NCBI GenBank assembly: GCA_024692165.1
Contig: JAILMY010000230.1
Location: 1-38,286 of the forward strand
DNA: 38,286 nt
DNA from: Butyrivibrio sp.
GTDB taxonomy: Bacteria > Bacillota > Clostridia > Lachnospirales > Lachnospiraceae
Reading direction: 5' to 3'
Under the pieces are notes generated by a model. That model ran no database searches. It was given only the letters and a program-made list of their open reading frames with translations, and was not told the origin of the DNA. Of the stretch, positions 32,364-34,670 are shown in pieces (the stretch's first letter is position 1; the number at the start of each line of letters is the position of its first letter). The position numbers and the translations under genes are program-made.

Positions 32364-32801
32364 TTACTTTGTTCCGGTGGATCCAAAGCCGCCGCGATCT
32401 GCACCCTCTAAGTGATCACACTCGTTAAAGGTTATCTGTGGCTGATTTTCCATGATCCTGAACTGACAGATACGATCGTTAAAGGAAATATGCGTATCTC
32501 TCATGGCTATTACAGGCATAAACCACTGATCGTTGTCACCACAATAGGAATGGTCTATGATTCCCATGCTATTAGCCTGAATTATCCCAAAATTCTTAAA
32601 GGTTGAGCTTCTTGGAACCACGTGAGCCTCGTACCCCTCCGGAATCTCCATTGCAATTCCCAGAGGAATAAGCTTAAACTCCCCCTGCTTAAGATCAATG
32701 TCATCAGCACTTCGAAGGTCTATCCAATCAGATTTACCATCAATATACTGAAGTTTCTCAAGCTTATCACTAAAATATTTGATCTTTATTTCTTTATTCA
32801 T
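32364..32801 (-). CDS. dut: dUTP diphosphatase (trimeric dUTPase family)
   Basis: Motifs [47 protein letters not shown]. Confidence 0.85.
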
Positions 32802-32853
32802 ATCCTGACTTCCCCTTTGGATTTTCTTATGATCACTTTATTATAGCAAGCTA

Positions 32854-34065
32854 TTATTGATTTGAGTCTTTTAATTCCATGAATTGCAACCGCATGGAGT
32901 TTAAAATCACAAGACCACCCACGATGAGCGAGGTCAAGAGACCTGCTACAGGATCGACCAAAAGACCTGCAGCCTTAAATAAAGCTCCCAAAGCAATAAT
33001 GGCCCCTGAAACTGCATAAATTAACGAGATGATCAGATTCCATTTGATAATACTGTTTATCGATCTTGAGAGCCTTATTGAAGCTTCCACATCCTGCAAA
33101 GACTTTTTCATCACCAGCACTTCCTTGCAGCCGCATTTTTCGCCTATAAGGGTAACTTTTCCTCTTCCGGAAAGCTTTCTTAGAATCTCATCCCTATCCT
33201 CAGGCAGAACCTCAGCAATTACGTCCTCGATTCCTATCTTTTCAGCGATAGCTTTTCCGGTATATTCATTATCTCCGGTAAGCATTATCACTTTAATGCC
33301 CATACTCTTAAGATCAGCTATATACCTGGCTGTGTTATCAATAAGACTGTCTGCTACAGCAATGATGCCAAGGAGCCTTTTCCCTTTTGAAAAATAAATT
33401 GGGGTCTTGCCCTGCCCTGAGAACACCAGAGCTCTTTCTCTTATTTCCGGAGGAACAATAGCATTTTCTTCAATGAATCGCAAACTACCGCCTCTTACTG
33501 TTGTCCCGCCAATAGTCCCTTCAAGGCCGCCTCCTGCGTGAACCTCACAGTCATCCAGTTGTTCTTCTGCCTCCACGTAAAGCTCGCTTGTATGCTTATA
33601 TATAGCCTTTGCCATGGGATGGTCAATATTTACAGCCAGAATCTGTGCAGTCTCAAGCAATTCGTCATCTCCGGCAAAAACTCCTGCATTATAGCCGCTT
33701 TTGGTAATATGATCTGCACTGAAAACATCAGTGGTCACATATTTCCCCTTAGTAATCGTTCCTATTTTATTCATGGCAACAATCTGAGTCTTACCGACAT
33801 CTATCATATTCTCAACGCAGTCAAACTCAAGTCCATTTTTTAAAGCTGCTTTTTTGCCAAATCTTATGGCTATTGGCGCCGATAAGGCAAAAGCTATGGG
33901 ACATGCCACAAGAAGAACCGACAGTGCTCTCGTTAGCGCAAAAGATGTATCATTTACCGCCACCTTCCATGCACCAAATGTCAAAAGTGTTGCGGCCATC
34001 AAAACAAGTGTATAAATACAGATTATCTTTTTTGTTTTCTTCAGTACAGCTGCATTATCTCCCAT
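32854..34065 (-). CDS. Truncated heavy-metal P1B-type ATPase homologue lacking the phosphorylatable Asp (predicted pseudoenzyme)
   Basis: LLVACPIAFALSAPIAIRFGKKAALKNGLEFDCVE, NKIGTITKG (canonical DKTGT), HPMAKAI, MLTGDNEYTGKAIAEKIGI; two C-terminal TMs. ATG at 34065 has AAGGAAGG RBS (ORF track GTG at 34071). Confidence 0.85.
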   Translation of the reverse strand: MGDNAAVLKKTKKIICIYTLVLMAATLLTFGAWKVAVNDTSFALTRALSVLLVACPIAFALSAPIAIRFGKKAALKNGLEFDCVENMIDVGKTQIVAMNKIGTITKGKYVTTDVFSADHITKSGYNAGVFAGDDELLETAQILAVNIDHPMAKAIYKHTSELYVEAEEQLDDCEVHAGGGLEGTIGGTTVRGGSLRFIEENAIVPPEIRERALVFSGQGKTPIYFSKGKRLLGIIAVADSLIDNTARYIADLKSMGIKVIMLTGDNEYTGKAIAEKIGIEDVIAEVLPEDRDEILRKLSGRGKVTLIGEKCGCKEVLVMKKSLQDVEASIRLSRSINSIIKWNLIISLIYAVSGAIIALGALFKAAGLLVDPVAGLLTSLIVGGLVILNSMRLQFMELKDSNQ

Positions 34066-34091
34066 TTGCACCTTCCTTTATTTAGAAAACC

Positions 34092-34670
34092 TTACAATTC
34101 GATTATTCTCGCAAATTCCAGACCATGTATATCTCTTGCTGTAATAAAAAGCGGACCTGATCCCTGTTTGTCTCTGATAAACTTTATAGCGGTATTTCTC
34201 TCATCTTCCGTAAGTCCATCAAAGGGCTCATCCATGATAAGAACGTCATTGGGAATGCAGCATGCCCTTGCTATGGCTACCATTCTTCGCTGTCCCTTTG
34301 TCAGATCCTTAACCGGCTTAAGAAGAGCATCCTCAGGAAGAAGCTTTAACAGTTCCTCCGTTACTGTCTCTCTAAAGAGTTTGCTGCTTACCATAAAGCA
34401 ATTATCAATGGCATTGAGACTTTGTACCATTCTATCATCCTGGAACACAGTTCCCGAAACAATATATGGATATTTATAATCTCCCAAAAGTCCCACATTT
34501 CCACTGTCCGGATTTTCAAGACCGAGAATTATCCTTACCAGTGTAGTCATTCCGCATCCGGGCTTACCTGTTACTACATAGGCATGCTCAGATTCTATAT
34601 TTAAACTGAAGTTGTCCAGTACCTTTTTCCCTCCGTAGGACTTGGACACCTCCTTAACTTCGATTATCAT
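34092..34670 (-). CDS. Degenerate ABC-transporter ATPase subunit (NitT/TauT-like)
   Basis: Walker A position GKPGCGMTT, Q-loop VFQDDRMVQSLNAIDNC, signature LTKGQRRMVAIARA, Walker B VLIMDEPFDGL; no H-loop His. Confidence 0.85.
   Translation of the reverse strand: MIIEVKEVSKSYGGKKVLDNFSLNIESEHAYVVTGKPGCGMTTLVRIILGLENPDSGNVGLLGDYKYPYIVSGTVFQDDRMVQSLNAIDNCFMVSSKLFRETVTEELLKLLPEDALLKPVKDLTKGQRRMVAIARACCIPNDVLIMDEPFDGLTEDERNTAIKFIRDKQGSGPLFITARDIHGLEFARIIEL

Follow-up and report, generated by a model that had tools for sequence, protein, structure and literature searches.

A truncated CopA homologue of Butyrivibrio without its catalytic residues and with a constrained ATP-binding domain

What keeps a reading frame open when its product descends from a copper pump and has lost the residues on which pumping depends? 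This question was raised by a 403-residue protein, termed pseudo-CopA, encoded in a contig of Butyrivibrio sp. (GenBank assembly GCA_024692165.1, JAILMY010000230.1; the whole stretch of 38,286 nt is referred to as the window). A sequence-only reading had described a P1B-ATPase homologue with NKIGT for DKTGT and no actuator domain, and this was confirmed by the motifs and by a partial E1-E2_ATPase match. The frame, its start codon, the ribosome-binding site and the NKIGT codons lay exactly where that reading had placed them (Table 1). TIGR01525 matched pseudo-CopA with an E-value of 7e-61, and the scores fell under the curated NCBIfam cut-offs (139 vs 397 bits for TIGR01511; 207 vs 346 bits for TIGR01525). 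The best solved relative by sequence was 3rfu (E 3.5e-33), and an AF2 model (pLDDT 79.7, pTM 0.69) gave a TM-score of 0.86 to the CopA structure 7r0g.

Table 1 Features of the pseudo-CopA locus in the window and of related loci in other genomes.
Feature	Position	Strand	Evidence
Pseudo-CopA, truncated, catalytically dead P1B-ATPase homologue, 403 aa	32854..34065	minus	ORF, profile and alignment evidence
Shine-Dalgarno-like AGGAAGG ahead of ATG 34065	34071..34077	minus	sequence
First remaining transmembrane helix, M3-equivalent, residues 14-32	33970..34026	minus	hydrophobicity; helix in predicted model
CPx helix, residues 49-67, CPC to CPI	33865..33921	minus	
MNKIGT phosphorylation motif, Asp to Asn99	33757..33774	minus	
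N (ATP-binding) domain, residues 109-230, near-normal constraint	33376..33741	minus	
Clade-specific N-domain insert FSADHITKSGY	33691..33723	minus	
HP motif of N-domain, His149-Pro150, kept	33616..33621	minus	
GxG motif as GGG, residues 178-180, kept	33526..33534	minus	
TGDN of P-domain, residues 263-266, kept	33268..33279	minus	
In-frame loss site, about 22 residues, GDGxNDAPAL to GTDVA, now GEKCGCKEVL	33115..33144	minus	alignment
Last two transmembrane helices, residues 344-362 and 369-387	32905..33036	minus	
dUTPase-like gene, synteny anchor, 52 nt downstream of pseudo-CopA	32364..32801	minus	
TGCTATAAT, extended -10-like, between pseudo-CopA and dUTPase	32840-32848		
Orphan ABC-transporter ATPase, Walker A Lys to Met, 26 nt ahead of pseudo-CopA ATG	34092..34670	minus	
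Broken full-length CopA, G023	L152:4502-7150	plus	
Broken full-length CopA, G051	L150:1782-4391	minus	
HMA ORF between truncated CopA and dUTPase, G038	L127:3246-3533	minus	

CopA is the P1B-1 copper-exporting ATPase (TIGR01511, TIGR01525; solved as 3rfu, 7r0g and 3j09), to which pseudo-CopA is homologous by sequence and fold. Compared with it, pseudo-CopA has lost both the N-terminal and the C-terminal HMA domains, the first helices, the TGE actuator domain (the Pfam E1-E2_ATPase match being limited to profile positions 110-180), the phosphorylated Asp, the CPC motif and the GDGxNDAP hinge. The HP and GxG motifs of the ATP-binding N-domain were present, as was MLTGDN, all as the earlier reading had claimed. 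That reading had seen GEKCGCKEVL at the hinge; the hinge is indeed gone, though not by simple substitution, as the alignment indicated an in-frame loss from VGDGIND[APALTRADTGIAIGAGTDVAID]AADVVLMK in the intact protein to IGEKCGCKEVLVMK. It had likewise put the start near the CPx helix. The N-terminal parts are missing, but the start lies one helix earlier and four helices remain, against eight in CopA.

The nearest homologue among 79 genomes of the genus was found in genome G033 (52% identity over 307 residues, in an 893-residue open frame), where an intact 884-residue CopA stands beside the same dUTPase gene; identity between the syntenic pair was 48-52%. No closer relative was found in a family-wide search of 397 genomes with a strict cut-off, and other P-type ATPases found by a scan of the genome's contigs were 24-43% identical. 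The order gltX, three small genes, cation-efflux gene and dUTPase is common to the window and G033. On the basis of this orthology and synteny with an intact CopA, pseudo-CopA is CopA by descent. After CopA, G033 carries genes for a CsoR-type repressor, Aat, ClpA, ClpS, an ABC ATPase and an acyl-CoA ligase, whereas the window lacks the CsoR-to-ClpS stretch, and 26 nt separate its ABC gene from the truncated copA. The Aat-ClpA-ClpS block between CopA/CsoR and the ABC ATPase was seen in G033 only (L085:10010-13247, minus strand). Since ClpA of the window genome sits on another contig, G033 may have gained the block by insertion, and the window need not have lost it. When the deletion junction was aligned locally with G033, the 3' end of the ABC gene aligned and the copA side did not; the new start codon possibly came from the clpS start region.

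An intact, full-length orthologue at the same place, which the sequence-only reading had taken as a sign of simple decay, therefore does exist in G033, and this orthologue and the draft state of the genome would fit a recent neutral pseudogene or an assembly or sequencing error. The evolution of the frame is, however, not neutral decay. From the neighbouring genes, the window branch was calibrated at 1.44 neutral substitutions per codon, at which about 22 stops are expected; no stop or frameshift was seen despite 51% residue change. The probability of no stop was ~4e-11, and ~1e-7 even at the smaller distance that matches the observed 49% identity, a test that for the window lineage alone rests on one branch. 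All four helices are hydrophobic as in the pump (each P <0.04 against a neutral simulation matched for divergence). A free-branch codon model was unusable (t ran to 33) because synonymous sites were saturated on long branches, and neighbour-calibrated times and scale-free tests were used in its place. An assembly or sequencing error is improbable, given that the losses affect several distinct motifs and that the flanking gene order matches G033 and G038 on both sides; moreover, the same pattern occurs in five other species. We thus regard a neutral pseudogene or an error as very improbable.

The recurrence of the pattern was examined by reading the dUTPase locus in 44 genomes. CopA was apparently intact in 23 (motifs were checked in 22, as that of G075 is cut by a contig end), full-length with broken motifs in 2, truncated in 6 and absent in about nine. 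The truncated copies are those of the window, G038, G028, G070, G047 and G027, and the broken full-length ones those of G023 (GDGIID, HP to RP) and G051 (DKRGT, GDGVTD). Orthologues with Asn at the DKTGT position, for which a search had been proposed, were found: of the six truncated copies, four have Asn in place of Asp, and five have lost the hinge residues as a block. HP and GxG are lost in G038, and the HP histidine in G023. In the gene tree, the truncated copies fell among their expected relatives, each with intact sisters (support was 65 for G038 beside G064 and 98 for the trio G028/G070/G047), on terminal branches several to more than 10 times longer than those of the sisters. Taken with a neighbour tree, this gives at least four separate origins of the degenerate state, and beside each of them stands an intact sister.

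Several further arrangements were observed at these loci. An HMA domain resembling the C-terminal one of CopA survives in G038 as a separate 95-aa ORF without its CxxC. The copA frame overruns the dUTPase start in G028, G070 and G047 (L128:8428-8491, L129:6590-6653 and L131:7380-7431, respectively), and the three overrunning frames share the tail KRSRSNxLTISLKS. In G039, G012 and G006 (L136, L137 and L138), two unrelated genes of ~610 and ~830 codons take the place of copA; a 2356-aa CopA frame in G006 was dismissed as an artefact of masked N bases.

A second full-length CopA was found in all eight genomes with a broken copy and in one of the 23 with an intact copy, namely G069 (Fisher 1.1e-6, ignoring the kinship of the genomes). 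That of the window genome, a 901-residue frame in which no motif is broken, is adjacent to a gene for a CsoR-type repressor (PF02583) and lies on contig C86, a different contig from pseudo-CopA in an incomplete draft (87%). The simplest reading of these genomes is that the first pump was displaced by the second and then degenerated, and G023 and G051, both with a second CopA, are an early stage of the same process. The case resembles gene displacement by a second homologue followed by decay in its strong association with another complete CopA in the genome, and differs in that the frame is undisrupted and one domain is still selected. The co-occurrence of every broken copy with CopA2 could also mean that the dead protein became a regulatory partner, dimerising with CopA2 or competing for ATP or chaperone and so tuning copper export. 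However, the same co-occurrence is equally expected under displacement, the N-domain of CopA2 lacks the SGY loop described below, pseudo-CopA no longer has its copper site or HMA domains, and no CsoR-type regulator is left at the locus; we consider such a partnership improbable.

The distribution of changes along the protein differed sharply between intact and broken copies. Among intact pumps, no core part evolves faster than the N-domain (omega 0.075 vs 0.013-0.029 elsewhere); in broken copies, none evolves more slowly. Unique changes in the window versus its intact sister G033 numbered 17:11 in the N-domain, 81:3 in the membrane part and 42:3 in the P-domain, so that the membrane part is accelerated ~27-fold and the N-domain is near-normal (Fisher for N-domain against membrane part 5e-6; 6e-4 with another outgroup). 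The corresponding copy:sister counts for N-domain and membrane part were 15:11 and 63:2 in G028, 15:13 and 62:3 in G070, 19:13 and 66:3 in G047, 13:14 and 76:1 in G027, and 19:10 and 52:2 in G038, and the inversion ran in one direction throughout the eight broken copies. Among residues invariant in 21 intact pumps, the window keeps 20 of 25 in the N-domain and 62 of 152 elsewhere.

The trio G028, G070 and G047 shares the loss of the actuator domain, and its divergence therefore probably all postdates degeneration. Its N-domain omega (0.09) was close to the 0.075 of intact pumps. The absolute size of omega is uncertain owing to synonymous saturation and a fitted rate factor r = 2.6, whereas the domain contrasts do not hinge on it. 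As per-domain three-taxon omega fits for the N- and P-domains hit parameter bounds, codon-position counts were used instead. Between G028 and G070, differences at positions 1/2/3 were 0.15/0.14/0.53 in the N-domain, as in intact pumps, and 0.35/0.24/0.48 in the membrane part. Third positions differ to a similar extent inside and outside the N-domain, and on this ground two other causes of its conservation were rejected: gene conversion from an intact pump, and constraint at the DNA or RNA level. The earlier suggestion of a recent pseudogene is thus very improbable, for although intact orthologues exist, the frame carries no stop or frameshift and its evolution is non-neutral by domain, not the neutral dN/dS that decay would leave.

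The main rival to a retained function is that the gene is a relic kept open for other reasons. After displacement it would have had no role; nonsense and frameshift changes would be purged by polarity on, or translational coupling to, dUTPase and by the cost of a misfolded soluble domain, and missense changes and in-frame deletions would be tolerated until the gene is lost. The genus does present a graded series, from an intact copy with a second CopA (G069) through motif-broken full-length (G023, G051) and truncated copies to absence, and all broken copies are co-oriented with and directly upstream of dUTPase, with the small HMA ORF between them in G038. The overlap of the copA frame with the dUTPase start in the trio and the loss of ATP-site residues in G038 and G023 also fit such a relic. 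On the other hand, polarity accounts for an open frame and not for an N-domain evolving at the normal rate, as in the trio, while other parts accelerate severalfold to more than 20-fold. A promoter serving dUTPase alone may lie in the 52-nt gap of the window, as the TGCTATAAT there suggests, although a consensus scan did not list this sequence as one. We judge the relic to be a serious possibility, short of probable. Several relatives have lost copA altogether, and any function of pseudo-CopA is therefore dispensable.

What the N-domain might do was considered from its sequence. Nearly all CopAs linked to dUTPase, broken ones included, carry an insert of ~12 residues (FSADxxxxSGY), from which G023 has lost SGY; the second CopAs lack the insert, as do 54 CopA-like proteins from beyond the genus. 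The kept HP and GxG, together with the insert, point to a domain tethered to the membrane that may bind nucleotide, a partner or both. G038 has lost HP and GxG and G023 the HP histidine, and nucleotide binding is therefore not a shared constraint everywhere. The proposal of a repurposed nucleotide-binding membrane protein was hence partly supported, because the N-domain is selectively protected and the helices are kept hydrophobic, while HP is lost in G038, one of the six truncated copies. With its catalytic residues lost, its fold retained in the predicted model and its N-domain under selection, pseudo-CopA has several marks of a pseudoenzyme.

The gene upstream of pseudo-CopA, probably on the same transcript, is also a leftover. 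Canonical orthologues of this ABC ATPase sit with a permease and a binding protein; neither partner was found beside the window gene, and no such permease was found in the draft window genome, G033, G038 or G050. Its signature (LTKGQ) and switch (ARD) motifs are eroded, and the Walker A change from Lys to Met occurs in the window alone among 30 orthologues compared. Its 88% identity to G033 and strong codon-position bias indicate that it is under strong purifying selection. Thus, two neighbouring transporters have both been cut down to parts holding a nucleotide-binding domain.

Our best explanation, which as a whole has about an even chance of being correct, is that a displaced CopA degenerated and its ATP-binding N-domain was kept by selection for a second role. 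The CopA beside dUTPase would have been freed of its job once the lineage had a second CopA. A deletion would then have removed the N-terminal half with the HMA domain, first helices and actuator domain. Phosphorylation (D to N), the hinge that binds Mg, and the copper site would have been lost through point changes and the in-frame deletion. The remnant would presumably be expressed as a four-helix, membrane-anchored protein with a folded ATP-binding N-domain and no transport. The second role, held by the intact pump as well, would most likely be to bind, at the membrane, nucleotide and/or a partner by way of the SGY loop. Plasmodium guanylate cyclase beta likewise keeps a degenerate P4-ATPase-like domain from which the signature residues of P-type ATPases are gone (PMC6592433). 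That domain is of the eukaryotic P4 type and fused to a cyclase, whereas pseudo-CopA is a stand-alone bacterial P1B remnant, for which no bacterial precedent was found in the open-access literature.

Here, we propose, tentatively and as somewhat unlikely in this specific form, that the N-domain of CopA in this clade has a further function that needs no transport (docking or the sensing of nucleotide, possibly via the SGY insert), which survived on a membrane stub after a second pump took over. If so, the pump part dies and the N-domain function outlives it, and this happened at least four times. The recurring inversion of constraint is a natural experiment, which suggests that a P-type ATPase can contain a part whose importance does not depend on transport, and the intact, broken, truncated and absent copies within one genus form a test set for the change from pump to non-pump.
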